This document shows, in pieces, positions 1 through 4,911 of a DNA stretch of 10,274 bases. The notes beneath the pieces are model-generated. The model had not been told where the DNA came from and ran no database searches. It was given only the letters and a program-made list of their open reading frames with translations. Made by a program: the position numbers and the translations under genes. Each line of letters begins with the position of its first letter. Position 1 is the first letter of the stretch. The stretch covers positions 1 to 10,274 of the forward strand of contig JAESUA010000086.1 of NCBI GenBank assembly GCA_016763255.1, in the 5' to 3' direction. The stretch comes from Magnetovibrio sp. Its GTDB lineage: Bacteria; Pseudomonadota; Alphaproteobacteria; Rhodospirillales; Magnetovibrionaceae.

Positions 1-1
1 C

Positions 2-136
2 ACCAGCGAACTGGGAAAAAAGGCCCGTCGCATGATGAAGCTGCAGGTTAATATTCAGGACGGCGATGTGATGGTCAGTGTTGATGACAACATCGTTTAC
101 GTTACCCCGGTCAAATGGAAAAATGCTGATCGTTAA
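2..136 (+). CDS. 3' end of an unrecognised protein (partial)
   Basis: An open frame enters from the left edge and ends at a TAA at 134-136, giving 44 residues that end in KWKNADR. It has two in-frame ATG codons at 32 and 35, but the frame is open to the edge, so it is most likely the C-terminus of a longer gene. The visible part alternates short hydrophobic and charged stretches (VNIQDGDVMVSVDDNIVYV), as in beta-strand-rich domains. No family was recognised. It lies immediately left of the first repeat cluster and may be the last native gene before the accessory block. An overlapping frame at 78-290 is made mostly of repeat sequence and was not accepted. Confidence 0.5.
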   Translation, partial: TSELGKKARRMMKLQVNIQDGDVMVSVDDNIVYVTPVKWKNADR

Positions 137-157
137 AAGCAATACTTATCCGTGTAG

Positions 158-251
158 AATTACGGTGACAGGGAAAATTTCGGTGACGGTGCACTGTCAC
201 CGTAATTGGGAGAGCGTCCACCGTAGCGCAATTAAACCGTGTCACCGTAAT
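158..251. repeat. REP-like repeat cluster 1
   Basis: This cluster holds a direct AATTACGGTGACA (158-170), its exact 13-base reverse complement (195-207), a diverged direct copy (TTTCGGTGACGGTGC, 178-192) and a further inverted copy (240-251). The stretch 176-207 is itself a near-palindrome centred on GTGCAC. The inverted copy continues leftwards to about 227 as the second repeat type, in which the ACGGTGACACGGT core is followed by TTAATTGC. Similar arms recur at 2273-2358, 2476-2497, 2931-2966 and 3984-4049. The inverted arms could fold into strong hairpins in RNA or single-stranded DNA, as REP/BIME elements do. The family assignment is inferred; the repeats are seen directly. Confidence 0.85.
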
Positions 252-415
252 CCGCGATTAAATGAAATCCCTCTAGTCTTAACTCCATGATATCGTGGTA
301 TCCAGCCTCTCAAGACAGATGATTGGCTAATTTTTAGAGATGCCCTGCACTTCAATACAAAAACATTTTACGATAACAAATCTTGACGAGTATTAGGACT
401 ATTTAGGAACGGCCA
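252..415. other. Intergenic stretch before the ATPase operon
   Basis: This AT-rich, non-coding stretch lies between repeat cluster 1 and the ATPase gene. It contains an imperfect palindrome, CCATGATATCGTGG (285-298), and a weak promoter-like pair (TTTACG 367-372 and TATTAG 391-396, spacer 18). Neither is convincing alone. A ribosome-binding site AGGA at 405-408 precedes the ATPase ATG by 7 bases. The operon promoter should lie here, because no gene reads in from the left beyond 136. Confidence 0.4.
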
Positions 416-1603
416 ATGAAACTGGAATACCTTCGTCTCAAAAACTTTAAAGCATTCCGACAAACGGAAATGCGTGATATTCCAAACTTCTGCGTGCTGG
501 TAGGGGCGAACGGCACTGGGAAATCAACACTTTTCCACGTGTTCTCTTTTCTCAGAGAAGCCATGTCGAGCAATATCCACACGGCCCTGGTCAAACACGG
601 GGGCAGCCGAGGATTCAGTGAGGTGCGCACACGCGGATGTGAAGGCGATATCGAAATTGAGTTGAAGTTTCGCGAAAAATCTAGAGCACCTTTGGTTACC
701 TACGCCCTTTCCATCGGCGAGAAAAATGGCAAACCTGTGGTCACGCGGGAAATCCTGAAATATCGTCGGGGCAGTAAGGGCCAGCCTTGGCAGTTTCTCA
801 ACTTCTCTCACGGCAAGGGCTATGCCGTAACCAATGAGGTTGATGATATTGACGATGAAAAACGCCTCAACCGCGAAGAACAAAGCCTTAAAGCCTCTGA
901 TATTCTCGCGATTAAAGGTCTTGCACAGTTTGAAAAATTTCCCGCCGTCGTAGCGTTGGGTGAATTAATTGAGAACTGGCACGTTTCTGATTTTCATATC
1001 AGTGCGGCGCGTCCCGAACGCGAAGCGGGGTATGCGGAGCACCTATCCACGGAAGGTGACAATCTGGCTTTGGTTACGGAATACCTTCACAATCGACATA
1101 TAGACGTCTTCGATACGATTTTAACGAAGCTGTCCGAACGTGTGCCAGGGATCACAAAAGTCGAAGCTAAGCCGACGGAAGAAGGACGGATACTACTCCG
1201 CTTCCAAGATGGCGCTTTCGAAGATCCTTTTCTGGCACGCTACGTTTCCGACGGTACAATCAAGATGTTTGCCTACCTTATCTTGCTCTATGACCCAGAG
1301 CCGCATCCTTTGCTATGTGTCGAAGAGCCAGAAAACCAGTTTTACCCAAGTTTGTTGGTCGAATTGGCTGAAGAATTTCGATCCTATGCCAATCGCGGCG
1401 GTCAAGTTTTCGTTTCCACCCACTCACCTGACTTCCTCAATGCGGTAGAAGCTGATGAGGTTTATTGGATAGTAAAGGAGAACGGCTTTAGTACCATCCA
1501 TCGGGCAAGCGAAGACAAACAAATCATGAGCTTTATGCAACAAGGTGACAAGATGGGCCATCTCTGGAAAGAGGGGTTATTACAGGGAGTTGACCCTCAA
1601 TGA
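416..1603 (+). CDS. OLD/ABC-like AAA family ATPase (AAA_15/AAA_21 type)
   Basis: A 395-residue P-loop ATPase of the SMC/Rad50/OLD-like group. An N-terminal MKLEYLRLKNFKAF strand, typical of RecF/OLD-like ATPases, leads into Walker A GANGTGKST (30-38). The middle region (about 80-270) includes the LSTEGDNLALV motif (210-220) common in AAA_21 proteins. Then follow a signature-like SDGT (278-281), Walker B LLCVEEPE (299-306) with the catalytic Glu pair, and the H-loop STHSPDF (334-340). All ATPase elements are present, so it should bind and hydrolyse ATP, probably as a dimer. There is no C-terminal Toprim domain as in classical OLD nucleases; the next gene may supply that role. ATG 416 has AGGA 7 bases upstream. 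The stop overlaps the next start (ATGA, 1600-1603), so the two genes are co-translated. A role in phage or plasmid defence is inferred from family and pairing; the cargo-like repeat flanks are consistent with this. Confidence 0.9.
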   Translation: MKLEYLRLKNFKAFRQTEMRDIPNFCVLVGANGTGKSTLFHVFSFLREAMSSNIHTALVKHGGSRGFSEVRTRGCEGDIEIELKFREKSRAPLVTYALSIGEKNGKPVVTREILKYRRGSKGQPWQFLNFSHGKGYAVTNEVDDIDDEKRLNREEQSLKASDILAIKGLAQFEKFPAVVALGELIENWHVSDFHISAARPEREAGYAEHLSTEGDNLALVTEYLHNRHIDVFDTILTKLSERVPGITKVEAKPTEEGRILLRFQDGAFEDPFLARYVSDGTIKMFAYLILLYDPEPHPLLCVEEPENQFYPSLLVELAEEFRSYANRGGQVFVSTHSPDFLNAVEADEVYWIVKENGFSTIHRASEDKQIMSFMQQGDKMGHLWKEGLLQGVDPQ

Positions 1604-2163
1604 ATCTTGTTTTTATGCTAGAAGAGCCTTCGGCCAAGGCCATGCTGGAGGGCTTAATGCCTCGCATTTTACCCGATCACTGCAACGTTCAATATATCGT
1701 ATTCGAGGGCAAGCAGGACTTGCTGAAACGGCTCCACATTAAATTAAGGGGCTGGCTGGCTCCTAACACCTGTTTCGTGGTTCTGTTCGATAAAGACAAC
1801 CAAGATTGCGTGGACTTGAAGGTTCAAGCCGCTCAAATATGCACAACCTCCGGAAAACCAAATGCGCTTGTCCGCATTGTCTGTCACGAACTTGAAAGCT
1901 GGTACCTGGGCGACCTTAAATCCGTGGAAACCGCGCTGCAAGTCCCTGGGCTAAGCAATAAGCAAAAAAGCCAGTACCAAACGCCAGACAACATCCTCGA
2001 TCCAAAAGGTGAACTAAAGCGCCTTACGAAAGATGCATACCAACAAGTCAACGGATCCCGCAAAATTGGAAAAATCCTATCCCCGACCAATAACCTATCA
2101 ACAAGCTTTAGCTTTTTTATATCGGGTATTCAGAAACTGGTCTCTGAAGAGTGTTTCAATTGA
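1600..2163 (+). CDS. DUF4276 family protein, Toprim-like, partner of the ATPase
   Basis: A 187-residue protein recognised as DUF4276 from three features. The N-terminal strand-turn-helix has acidic residues (FMLEEPSAKAMLEGLMP, 5-21). The HELESWYLGD block (96-105) is characteristic. The C-terminal KIGKILS...FSFFISGIQKL region (156-180) matches the family tail. FVVLFDKDNQDC (59-70) places Asp64 and Asp66 after a hydrophobic strand. Together with Glu8/Glu9 this resembles the Glu plus DxD metal site of Toprim nucleases, but a Toprim fold is an inference. The gene starts inside the ATPase stop codon (ATGA) and has GGGAG about 10 bases upstream, so expression is tightly coupled. An ATPase with a separately encoded Toprim-like partner recalls the AriA/AriB (PARIS) arrangement, though AriB is a different DUF family. 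The length is near the usual range and the gene looks intact. Confidence 0.85.
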   Translation: MNLVFMLEEPSAKAMLEGLMPRILPDHCNVQYIVFEGKQDLLKRLHIKLRGWLAPNTCFVVLFDKDNQDCVDLKVQAAQICTTSGKPNALVRIVCHELESWYLGDLKSVETALQVPGLSNKQKSQYQTPDNILDPKGELKRLTKDAYQQVNGSRKIGKILSPTNNLSTSFSFFISGIQKLVSEECFN

Positions 2164-2272
2164 AACTCAAGTTCGCCCCCTTGCTTCCAAAATCACCAAG
2201 CAAAGCGTCTACAAATTTAGGGGCATCTCAATGTACGCAAAGCGGTGACACGATCTGGTGTTCGATGCGAGG

Positions 2273-2358
2273 AATTACGGTGACACGGTGTAGTTGCACC
2301 GCAATTGCAACATTATGTTACAATTACGGTCAATTACGGTGACAGTGCACTAATTACG
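2273..2358. repeat. REP-like repeat cluster 2, left arms
   Basis: Two repeat types stand side by side. AATTACGGTGACACGGTG (2273-2290) is followed by a tail ending ATTGCAACATTATGTTA (2304-2320). Then come a short partial copy AATTACGGT (2322-2330) and a full first-type copy beginning AATTACGGTGACAGTGCAC (2332-2350) and continuing TAATTACG. The tail recurs almost exactly after the copy at 2931, and TGACAGTGCACTAATTA (2340-2356) recurs exactly at 3984-4000. The cluster sits just downstream of the ATPase-DUF4276 operon. Confidence 0.85.
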
Positions 2359-2468
2359 TTTTGGTTTTTTCTTCGGCCACGCTTGGCTGGCTTTAGAGGC
2401 TTTCCGGTTAGCTTTTCTGCCTGTAAAAAAATCATTGAATTAGGCTGACGGAAGTTGATGAAATTCAT
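2334..2468 (-). pseudogene. C-terminal remnant of a REP-associated tyrosine transposase (RAYT)
   Basis: The minus strand carries a 44-codon open frame from an ATG at 2468-2466 to a TAA at 2336-2334. It was too short for routine ORF calling. Its second half, EKLTGKPLKPAKRGRRK, resembles the conserved C-terminal tail of Y1-type REP-associated transposases (a Leu-Thr-Gly-Arg/Lys block followed by a basic Pro/Gly/Arg-rich tail). The frame ends inside the repeat: its last codons and stop are the reverse complement of ACGGTGACAGTGC. The catalytic HUH and Tyr regions are absent, so this cannot be an active enzyme. It is probably the 3' end of a deleted transposase next to its own recognition repeat. 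The match is made from memory of the family's tail and needs a search. Confidence 0.45.
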
Positions 2469-2475
2469 TTGCAAT

Positions 2476-2497
2476 TTAATGCACTGTCATCGTAATT
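2476..2497 (-). repeat. Inverted first-type repeat copy
   Basis: TTAATGCACTGTCATCGTAA and the next two bases form the reverse complement of the repeat arm at 2332-2353 with two substitutions. This is the right end of the segment that contains the transposase remnant. Confidence 0.8.
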
Positions 2498-2609
2498 CCA
2501 GAAGCAGAACTGTCAAGGTTTATGAATTTTATCCCATATGCTTGACAAGTAAATCGTCTTAGGTGAGTGTTGCGATCATTCAAAACCTATCTTCGTCAAG
2601 AATGGGTAA

Positions 2610-2882
2610 ATGGTAGATTCAGTGAATAAAATAATTACGATGGCAATCGCTGTCGCAGCGGTCTTGGGCGCTCCGGGTTTGTCAAAATCGGCCAGTGCAG
2701 AGGAAGACTGGACAGAATTTTATGGGGGTGGTGTTGATTGGCGGATAGATGAGCGGTTTAGCGTTCGTGGTGAGTATATGTACGGTAACTACGGTTCCGA
2801 AAGCCTTGCAATTGTATCCACGCCCGACAGTGTTGAATTTGAAACGCATATTATGCGGGAGGGACTTGTCTGGAACTTATAA
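2610..2882 (+). CDS. Truncated outer-membrane beta-barrel protein (internal deletion remnant)
   Basis: A 90-residue frame. Residues 1-30 look like a signal peptide (MAIAVAAVLGAPGLSKSASA, cleavage near Ala30). The rest resembles only the last strands of an OmpA-like/Opa-type porin barrel: GVDWRIDERFSVRGEYMYGNYGS (about 41-63) followed by EFETHIMREGLVWNL (76-90). Such proteins normally have roughly 200 or more residues and eight strands. Here the signal sequence is joined in frame straight to the C-terminal hairpin, so an internal deletion is likely. The final residue is Leu rather than the usual Phe/Tyr/Trp needed for BAM recognition. The ribosome-binding site before ATG 2610 is weak; ATG 2640 (residue 11) is an alternative without a better site. 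It is probably non-functional, although a short secreted peptide cannot be excluded. Confidence 0.55.
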   Translation: MVDSVNKIITMAIAVAAVLGAPGLSKSASAEEDWTEFYGGGVDWRIDERFSVRGEYMYGNYGSESLAIVSTPDSVEFETHIMREGLVWNL

Positions 2883-2930
2883 ACAACAATTTGCTTCTTA
2901 TAAGTGGCGCTAATCGCGTTTCGCATAAGC

Positions 2931-2966
2931 ATTACGGTGACACGCTGTAATTGCAATATTATGTTA
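2931..2966 (+). repeat. Second-type REP-like repeat copy
   Basis: ATTACGGTGACACGCTGTAA followed by TTGCAATATTATGTTA. Both halves match 2274-2320, with about 12 bases of that copy missing in the middle. It lies between the beta-barrel remnant and the 320-residue gene. Its tail is 34 bases before the next ATG, so it may overlap the promoter or 5' UTR of that gene. Confidence 0.8.
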
Positions 2967-2999
2967 GAAAATAAATACTTAATGTCCCTGGGGCTGTAA

Positions 3000-3962
3000 A
3001 TGTTAAAAAAAATCCTAATTTATTCGGCTGCCGTATTTGGCACTTATTCTGCTCATGCAAATGATCATATCGACTTCAAGTTGTCTGCTGGTGCTCAAGA
3101 AATCAGGGGGATTGAGGTTTCTTACAACTACGATGTTGATGAGAATGAGCTAATCAAGTCAAGAGACAACGCAAAGGGTCTATACAGTGACACTGTTCTA
3201 AGCATTGGCTTAGACGGAGACTCGTTTGTCAGTGGTACAATGTTTGGATCTAAGCCAACCCTGTCTTTTGGGTTTGATTATGATGGCTATTGGGCGGATG
3301 CTAAATCGACTTTAGTACCTGGCACAGGAAATAGCCCCCTTGATGTAAATGGTAACGTACTGGCTACAAACTTTATTGCAGGTACGTTTGTTTCTGAATT
3401 CCAGCAAAAGCAGTATGAGCTAGGTATCGAACTTGCGGGCGAGCTTGGGGAAGATGAGTTTATCTCACCGATTTTAGGGTTTTTCGTCAGGTCTAAGACG
3501 CAAGATCATGAAGTTTTGGGTAAATGGACATCACAACCTAATAACCCTCGTTCGCTTATGGATAGCGACTTGACGTCTAGGTCTGTCGGTTTGTCCATTG
3601 GGGCAAATGTACAATCACCTGACTACGGTGGCTTTAGGTTTTCAGCACTTCCAGAACTGAAAACGTCTTATACAAAAAGCCATATGAGAACCACGCAAGA
3701 TAAAAATGGTATTGTTGGTGGTGTTCCTGATGGCGTGTCTGTAACCGATGTAGAGCATCACGTTGTAGTGGAGCCTTCATTGACTATGGGAGGACATTAC
3801 CAAGCTGGTAGCTTTACCATTGGTGCAGAATTTTTTAGTGCATATTCTTATGGTGATGCATTGATACGGTTGTCAGAAAAACAGGGGCAGCCTGCTCAAA
3901 TTGATACCAATAATGATGGATACAGCTACGGTGGTGGATTGACATTGAAAGTTGTTTTTTAA
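3000..3962 (+). CDS. Putative outer-membrane beta-barrel protein, function unknown
   Basis: A 320-residue protein with a clear signal peptide (MLKKILIYSAAVFGTYSAHA, cleavage after Ala20). It has many alternating amphipathic strands rich in Gly, Tyr, Phe and Ser, for example TLSFGFDYDGYWADAKSTL (86-104) and the closing GYSYGGGLTLKVVF. The chain ends in Phe320, the typical C-terminal signal for outer-membrane insertion. The pattern fits a barrel of perhaps 10-14 strands, with loops rich in Asp and Asn. No named family was recognised. ATG 3000 is directly preceded by an in-frame TAA, so the start is firm; the ribosome-binding site (GGGG at 2990-2993) is modest. Base composition is clearly AT-richer than the genes right of 4150, and repeats lie on both sides, which suggests acquisition by transfer. 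It could be a surface receptor, adhesin or phage-exposed protein, but nothing visible decides this. Confidence 0.7.
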   Translation: MLKKILIYSAAVFGTYSAHANDHIDFKLSAGAQEIRGIEVSYNYDVDENELIKSRDNAKGLYSDTVLSIGLDGDSFVSGTMFGSKPTLSFGFDYDGYWADAKSTLVPGTGNSPLDVNGNVLATNFIAGTFVSEFQQKQYELGIELAGELGEDEFISPILGFFVRSKTQDHEVLGKWTSQPNNPRSLMDSDLTSRSVGLSIGANVQSPDYGGFRFSALPELKTSYTKSHMRTTQDKNGIVGGVPDGVSVTDVEHHVVVEPSLTMGGHYQAGSFTIGAEFFSAYSYGDALIRLSEKQGQPAQIDTNNDGYSYGGGLTLKVVF

Positions 3963-3983
3963 TCATCACCAATAGGATTACAT

Positions 3984-4049
3984 TGACAGTGCACTAATTA
4001 AGAATTACGGTGACGGTTACACGGTATAATTGTATCATCACCGTAATTC
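3984..4049. repeat. REP-like repeat cluster 3 with 12-bp perfect stem
   Basis: TGACAGTGCACTAATTA (3984-4000) is identical to 2340-2356. It is followed by an inverted pair, GAATTACGGTGA (4002-4013) and TCACCGTAATTC (4038-4049), a perfect 12-base stem around a 24-base loop. The loop carries a form of the second repeat type (TTACACGGTATAATTG). The cluster lies 20 bases after the beta-barrel stop. It could act as a 3' hairpin that stabilises or partly terminates that transcript, but it has no T-tract for a classical intrinsic terminator. Confidence 0.85.
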
Positions 4050-4149
4050 GTATTGCGGGTTTTGCAAACGTTGGAGCACGAACACCAAATCCCAGAAACC
4101 TTAAGCGGGTGAGCAGAGGCTTGAATTTTAGGCTGAACCTAGGTCTGGG

Positions 4150-4911
4150 TTATTTAACAGTACCCAAGATCAAGCGGTTGTTACTGGCCTGAACGGGGCG
4201 CGCATTTTCACCGCCAAACGCCGCTTTCATCTTCGCAATTTGTGCCTTGGATACGGTCATGGCCTGCTTCACGACGAACCAGTTCACCCCTTCCGAACAC
4301 GGAGGCGTCGTCAACGACCCCATGTAACGATAATAACTGCGCTTGTTGGGAAGGATGGCGCGCAAATCAACCGTCACCCCTTTCACCACCTTTGCGCCAT
4401 GGCTGTTGCCCTTTGGGGCATGGGTAATGACCTCTTTCAACGCAGCATTTTCCACACCTTCGTTAAAGAACACCCCAATCACAGCCAAGGGGCCTCCACC
4501 GGAGACTTGGTGCACGAAGTGGGCCTCCATATCATAAGTCTTTCCACTGATGGGATGCTCAGAAGGAGTGTGAAAATGGACCTGGCGCAGGTAGAATGTC
4601 TTATTGTGGGATCTCATAAACGATCCATTTTCCACATTCATCTGAACGGTGTGACCATTATTGAGAATTTCCAATCCAACCGGCCTGTAATCAAGCGACA
4701 CCTCAACGCCACTTGTTGCGTTTGCATCAGATAAATCTACCGGTGACTGCATTTTTCCTGAACCGCAGACCTTGAAGTCCGGCGATAGATCTCCCCACTT
4801 GGCAGGCCCCTCATCCCCACCATAGCCCCAAGACGCCGTTTGAGCGGGCTGCGTTACTACGGAACCGGCGACCACGACAACTGCTGCGCATGACAAAAGA
4901 TTGATATTCAT
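4150..4911 (-). CDS. Periplasmic alpha-class carbonic anhydrase
   Basis: A 253-residue alpha-carbonic anhydrase that interconverts CO2 and bicarbonate in the periplasm. The signal peptide covers about 1-26 (cleavage near QTA|SW). Family blocks appear in order: SWGYGGDEGPAKW (27-39), QSPVDL (55-60), NNGHTVQMN (84-92), QVHFHTPSEH (110-119), MEAHFVHQ (128-135), YYRYMGSLTTPPCSEGV (193-209) and NARPVQASNNR (236-246). The zinc ligands are His112, His114 and His131. Thr201 matches Thr199 and His87 matches the proton-shuttle His64 of the human enzyme. Cys49 and Cys205 fit the disulfide of bacterial alpha enzymes. The active site is complete and the length normal. It is transcribed alone, with its own promoter at 4947-4976 and AGGGA about 12 bases before the ATG. 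It is the first ordinary gene to the right of the accessory block. Confidence 0.95.
   Translation of the reverse strand: MNINLLSCAAVVVVAGSVVTQPAQTASWGYGGDEGPAKWGDLSPDFKVCGSGKMQSPVDLSDANATSGVEVSLDYRPVGLEILNNGHTVQMNVENGSFMRSHNKTFYLRQVHFHTPSEHPISGKTYDMEAHFVHQVSGGGPLAVIGVFFNEGVENAALKEVITHAPKGNSHGAKVVKGVTVDLRAILPNKRSYYRYMGSLTTPPCSEGVNWFVVKQAMTVSKAQIAKMKAAFGGENARPVQASNNRLILGTVK

Follow-up and report, generated by a model that had tools for sequence, protein, structure and literature searches.

A two-gene unit, an OLD/SMC-type ABC ATPase gene followed by a DUF4276 gene, lies near the 5' end of a 10,274-nucleotide stretch of Magnetovibrio sp. DNA (contig JAESUA010000086.1), referred to here as the window. 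The window is an entire contig (C15) from a 2.71-Mb source genome that is in 425 contigs and 67% complete; its G+C content, counted per 500 bases, is 0.41 to 0.49 over positions 1 to 4000 and 0.49 to 0.62 from 4001 on. The features of the pair are as follows.

416..1603, plus strand: OLD/SMC-type ABC ATPase (AAA_21), the HEC-01 ATPase; 395 amino acids; Pfam PF13304, E value 4.3e-29
ATPase motifs (residues of the protein): Walker A 30-37, signature 278-281, Walker B and catalytic Glu 303-304, H-loop His 336
1600..1603, plus strand: ATGA shared by the end of the ATPase gene and the beginning of the DUF4276 gene, read from the sequence
1600..2163, plus strand: DUF4276 protein, predicted OLD-type Toprim nuclease; 187 amino acids; PF14103, E value 4.1e-14

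The ATPase carries all the elements of an OLD/SMC-type ABC ATPase, namely a Walker A of sequence GANGTGKS, an SDGT signature, a VEEPE Walker B, and an STHSPD H-loop; the motifs MLEEPSA, FDKD, and HELESWYLGD are found in its partner. The two are separate open reading frames (ORFs) with an intervening stop, unlike the one-chain layout of OLD classes 1 to 3, and may be translationally coupled through the ATGA overlap. The original prediction, made from the letters of the window, had described a complete P-loop ATPase (Walker A, SDGT, EEPE, H-loop) overlapping by ATGA a DUF4276 protein with HELESWYLGD. Both parts were borne out, the overlap at 1600-1603; among 23 pairs of the order, the window's included, ATPase residues G30, N32, G33, G35, K36, S278, D279, G280, T281, E303, E304, and H336 are invariant.

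That prediction could match the pair to no named defence system; a search of PADLOC-DB 2.0.0 supplied one. The ATPase matched PDLC04144 (HEC-01) with an E value of 4.6e-201 over 395 of 395 positions, and the DUF4276 protein matched PDLC04143 (HEC-01) with an E value of 3.5e-72 over residues 2-183. As judged by these profile matches, which cover nearly the full length of both proteins and the same two genes, the pair is a member of the catalogued candidate defence system HEC-01, and the idea of an unnamed system was ruled out by them. The labels HEC-01A and HEC-01B are swapped between PDLC04143/PDLC04144 and PDLC04182/PDLC04202, which can mislead automatic calls. The best NCBIfam match of the ATPase was to the Mad3 ATPase of MADS (MAD3), yet at 108 bits it fell far under the 420-bit cut-off; an Rfam scan of the window gave no match.

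HEC stands for Hma-embedded candidate, and several HECs, HEC-06 among them, are said to be antiviral in a passage of PMC12988326; HEC-01 itself is mentioned in part of PMC12724379 as a system present in Desulfovibrio piger strains. In the literature searched, we found neither an experimental status for HEC-01 nor any use of the names DUF4276 and PF14103. Pfam identified no Hma gene among the ten window ORFs scanned, on a contig that ends 415 bases 5' of the pair; Hma embedding is the origin of the HEC-01 name and is not known as a requirement. What we add to the catalogue entry is evidence on the nature of the second protein and on the locations of such pairs.

The two families are found together with great regularity. 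One search identified 858 relatives of the window's DUF4276 protein. PF14103 occurs in 30 of 199 genomes (the source genome included; 44 match rows), and at all 30 order-level loci examined, one per genome, an ATPase gene lies directly 5' of the DUF4276 gene on the same strand; 18 of these ATPases match the window's at 120 bits or more, and 12 at 41 to 98 bits. A search with the ATPase (E ≤ 1e-30) gave 29 matches, spread over 26 of 317 genomes from the order; a separate DUF4276 ORF adjoins 27 of the matches, and the remaining two are fragments, at contig ends, of a single gene in genome G035. At the phylum scale, PF14103 was present in 48 of 397 genomes, and an ATPase, truncated by the contig end in one case, stood at 20 of 20 loci examined. 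The co-occurrence of the families that the original prediction depended on was seen at both scales. In 23 pairs, the ATPase and DUF4276 distance matrices correlate at 0.84, with a maximum of 0.33 in 2,000 permutations; shared descent contributes to this value. Gene spacing, taken from the possible start codon nearest the ATPase stop, is a -4 overlap in 14 of these pairs and within -4 to +4 in all 23. No match was found in the five other genomes of the genus; because of this, and of the varied locations of its relatives, the pair is accessory and not core. One contig-end piece from G035 (locus L116, 1114-1923, together with L111) reads from the end of the ATPase into the beginning of a DUF4276 protein without a change of frame, and is probably what is left of a pair in decay; a natural fusion was considered, and it was not used as evidence because nothing beyond the first part of DUF4276 matched.

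The AlphaFold2 (AF2) model of the DUF4276 protein had a predicted local distance difference test (pLDDT) score of 94.8, and a structure search with this model identified OLD Toprim regions as the best fold matches; AriB was not among the matches listed, an absence that carries no excluding weight. The predicted structure, and not the sequence, assigns the protein a Toprim domain of the OLD type. Across the 23 pairs, residues E8, D64, E97, E99, and D130 are invariant and D66 is conserved at 0.96, in keeping with the possible Glu plus DxD metal site that had been proposed. Conservation at this level in both proteins means that the motifs did not arise by chance. In the model, E8 lies just past the first strand, D64-x-D66 closes the third, and E97-x-E99 lies past the fourth. 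The metal A ligands of Bp OLD are given as E400, D455, and D457 and those of metal B as E404, T506, and E508 in a section of PMC6755086; the TsOLD counterparts, from a section of PMC7049728, are E377, D431, and D433, and D381, S478, and E480. As modeled, E8, D64, D66, E97, and E99 are candidate metal ligands that fit this layout. DUF4276 E8 would fall on OLD E400, because the structural alignment to 6nk8 places chain residue 393 opposite model residue 1.

We compared the neighbours of such pairs with the PADLOC models. At the phylum scale, using 20 hand-chosen genomes of the 48 with PF14103, 114 focal ORFs matched 56 families versus 7 for 114 of 115 control ORFs; the output counts families and not distinct proteins, so these figures give no protein-level ratio. 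Among the best 25 of the 56 focal families are type I restriction (2 members, E values down to 0), KwaA, KwaB, NERD+UvrD, and three PDC families.

Plasmid contexts were drawn from 13 records, 12 of them annotated (L228 is unannotated), picked for diversity and without a control; two (L223 and L230) are plasmids of one strain sharing the same segment. In the window-like branch of the family, the pair on a Meiothermus plasmid lies just 5' of the R gene in a type I restriction-modification (R-M) row, and DUF4433 and macro-domain genes, presumably a DarTG-like pair, follow the subunit S gene and precede the ATPase-DUF4276 pair (L220, 5004-8612), which places two candidate systems within one R-M row. 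On pSYSM, toxin-antitoxin (TA) genes, HNH endonucleases, and a phosphorothioation-linked methyltransferase are near the pair; on a Pseudanabaena conjugative plasmid, there is no R-M, TA, or similar gene by it. Of the distant-branch pairs, one (Ideonella) has a methyltransferase on one side and Mrr on the other, a second (A. veronii) is flanked by a methyltransferase and a DEAD/DEAH helicase, and a third (A. media) by an SNF2 protein and a methyltransferase; another adjoins VapBC, AIPR proteins stand beside the pairs on two plasmids from a single strain, and on a Nostoc plasmid HNH endonucleases and an integrase are near the pair, with no R-M or TA gene. Intermediate-branch pairs are found in a Rahnella prophage and in the conjugation region of a Pseudomonas plasmid. 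A P2-like viral contig also carries a window-like pair, with the CI repressor on one side and the integrase on the other. A scan of viral contigs for ATPase relatives gave none, yet L217 carries one that the scan missed.

The computation shows directly that both genes are present and constantly paired, that their predicted folds are OLD-like, and that the metal-site pattern is conserved; the folds, motifs, and pairing support the split OLD-like ATPase plus Toprim interpretation put forward in the original prediction. We consider it probable that this HEC-01 family member acts like an OLD-family ATPase-nuclease divided between two chains, with phage defence as its likely role; complex formation, nuclease activity, a trigger, a target, and an anti-phage effect are what we infer for it. 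The ABC ATPase would be sensor and regulator, and the DUF4276 protein a Toprim metal nuclease that the ATPase either keeps inactive or recruits. Infection, or inhibition of a guarded process such as restriction, would trigger the ATPase to free or activate the Toprim subunit, which would then cut nucleic acid (tRNA, like PARIS, or DNA, like Gabija and OLD), and the cleavage would stop phage growth.

Several observations weigh against this interpretation. For the nuclease, no link to a solved Toprim was seen at the sequence level: the single DUF4276 sequence gave 0 matches at E ≤ 10, and a profile search of the PDB gave seven chance-like matches, the best to Hax3 at 0.0032. If E8 matches E400, the OLD E404/D381 position is Ala12 in the window protein; with Ala four residues past E8, one OLD metal ligand has no counterpart in DUF4276. 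A more diverse set of 26 members keeps just E8, E97, and E99 without exception. In the distant branch (six rows: L221-L225 and L227), which is probably a separate subfamily, the DxD column is replaced by a D-x-YG-like region; the first motif there is VEGQTEE or similar, which would give an acidic residue at +4 in 6 of 6 rows. For defence, the order-level neighbours (three on each side at 19 of the 30 loci, 14 of the 19 being of the window-like branch; four on each side would have made 144 ORFs) are mostly housekeeping genes. The neighbour ORFs were picked as the longest open stretches, so some are not genes; no Pfam family was common to more than two of those scanned in either set. At 1e-20, the 109 focal ORFs gave two PADLOC family matches with one member each, mad3 and PDC-M30A, and the control (109 of 111 ORFs) likewise gave two with one member each; the mad3 match may be a pair's own ATPase. 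A defence-island location in the order is not supported by these equal counts. At the phylum scale, 17 of the 20 focal ATPases scored at most 100 bits or only E 1e-19 to 1e-21 with the window-branch profile, and only L274, L275, and L279 reached 331 to 560 bits; most defence-linked contexts belong to the distant branch. Nearness to known defence genes, on which the original prediction would have such systems surveyed, was no greater than in the control within the order, and across the phylum it concerned mostly distant relatives. Moreover, 3 of the 12 annotated plasmid contexts have no R-M, TA, or similar gene, and two DUF4276 queries found no match in 50,697 phage records. Finally, a class 5 OLD protein, Cran1, serves the cell cycle and not defence, according to part of PMC12796447.

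The Cran1 precedent also bears on a cellular role, in which the pair would be a non-defence ATPase-nuclease for DNA repair or the cell cycle, Rad50/SMC-like or class 5 OLD-like. SMC and Rad50 heads are the best structural matches of the ATPase model, and ordinary genes as order-level neighbours point the same way. Such a role is unlikely, however, given the patchy, noncore distribution (30 of the 199 genomes, and none of the five others of the genus), the lack of any Pfam family common to more than two neighbour ORFs scanned in either set, and the copies on plasmids, on a phage contig, and in R-M rows. An addiction pair stabilizing mobile DNA, with DUF4276 as the toxin and the ATPase as its control, would account for the overlapping two-gene operon and for the plasmid and prophage locations, and Pfam labels the family of the ATPase "putative AbiEii toxin, Type IV TA system." We regard it as quite unlikely: the ATPase is a large OLD/SMC-like enzyme whose catalytic motifs are invariant in the 23 pairs, unlike a simple antitoxin, and OLD-type ATPase-Toprim pairs are known as defence systems from part of PMC10568477. 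Addiction is in any case compatible with defence by abortive infection. The pair is very unlikely to be PARIS proper, which senses phage anti-restriction proteins and cuts tRNA, despite the shared two-gene ATPase-Toprim layout, an AriA match of the ATPase (E 1.1e-27), and some relatives within R-M gene rows as expected of a restriction guard, because the ATPase matches 139 PADLOC families (E ≤ 0.1), HEC-01 models far above AriA, so that the AriA match is not specific, and because the DUF4276 protein matches 13 families at that threshold, all HEC-01 and none AriB, with DUF4276 its only Pfam assignment.

The split OLD-family ATPase-nuclease that we favour can be placed among known systems. AriB is a DUF4435-type Toprim. 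TOPRIM-linked OLD-ABC gene pairs have reportedly been described by Aravind and colleagues. PARIS (AriA/AriB, "class 4 OLD") likewise draws an ABC ATPase and a Toprim nuclease from adjacent genes, as passages of PMC10568477 and PMC12796447 describe; in the models, the window pair is of the same split-OLD anatomy with a different Toprim family. A TOPRIM nuclease partnered with an OLD-type ABC ATPase is a general arrangement set out in part of PMC12839542, a BREX survey in whose main text "4276" does not occur; the window pair shares that arrangement, so its architecture is not new. OLD classes 1 and 2 and Gabija GajA resemble the pair in the predicted fold of both halves and in the Glu, DxD, x-x-E pattern of the candidate metal site; they differ in being single chains, OLD also in the acidic E404/D381 position and Gabija in its UvrD-like helicase, of which no copy was found among the ten window ORFs scanned. 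HEC-04/IbfA, also a HEC, has the same domain pair in one fused ABC ATPase-TOPRIM chain, and is said in part of PMC12111858 to protect against T4 and T5. A more specific proposal, which we offer tentatively and rather doubt, is that ATPase-DUF4276 pairs form a separate split-OLD class apart from PARIS, in which the window branch has a rebuilt metal B site (E97/E99, with no acid at OLD E404). These pairs would be restriction guards: copies in type I or methyltransferase-helicase R-M rows would fire on blocked restriction, and solitary copies like the window's would guard another process.

Repetitive extragenic palindromic (REP)-type repeats lie on both sides of the pair and farther into the window.

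159..251, no strand assigned: REP-type repeats clustered on the 5' side of the pair (ATTACGGTGACA units in both orientations)
2274..2496, no strand assigned: REP-type repeats clustered on the 3' side of the pair (ATTACGGTGACA units), within a repeat stretch at 2234-2500
2925-2969 and 3977-4053: further REP-type repeats, with ATTACGGTGACA units at 2931 and 3977-4047

They punctuate the AT-richer half of the window and set the pair apart from two outer-membrane-like ORFs. Integron-type sites were suspected first and dropped by eye. With at most two mismatches, an 18-base form occurs 14 times in the genome on four contigs, five times in the window, and a reversed-pattern control gave 0. On contig C167 (L016), the repeats border a Y1_Tnp transposase (E 1.6e-10), which we take to be RAYT-like. 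Among 75 loci with a longer repeat form, mostly alphaproteobacterial, 26 hold a relative of this transposase, with a repeat within 300 bases of it in 25, and 49 have none in the stretch fetched; no such match was found in 32 regions of other genomes (560 kb). Since the 75 loci were chosen by the repeat, this control speaks to the rarity of the transposase and not to the specificity of the repeat. The original prediction had read a repeat-bounded, AT-richer block as mobile defence cargo. The repeats and the lower G+C content stand; the cargo part is weakened, as the repeats occur on three other contigs and are missing from the most closely related locus, whose ATPase is 85% identical. They also lie between other window genes and so do not mark defence cargo. 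The regions fetched held no empty site: relatives carried the left-flank gene fragment or the right-flank genes, in no case both; mobility of the pair through its flanking repeats is not supported. Elsewhere in the genome (L016, 220-975 and 975-1625; L017, 1-563), the same repeats adjoin genes without Pfam matches, which by eye we take to resemble a polymorphic-toxin and immunity pair. The first 99 bases of L016 are repeated exactly at 2558-2656, perhaps an assembly break.

Of the other window genes, a 90-residue ORF (2610-2882) has a signal-like start and an apparent outer-membrane barrel tail, with no Pfam match, and is perhaps a shortened porin-type gene; a 320-residue ORF (3000-3962), also with a signal-like start and no Pfam match, is possibly a surface barrel. 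Positions 4150-4911 encode an alpha-type carbonic anhydrase, the type of eukaryotes (PF00194, E 1.8e-42); of the 17 other genomes of the family searched, just 2 (G008 and G006) hold strong relatives.

The fold and likely active site described here would turn the unknown DUF4276 family into a testable nuclease, and DUF4276 would be a second Toprim family in the split arrangement known from PARIS. The copies within restriction gene rows suggest a concrete, testable trigger.
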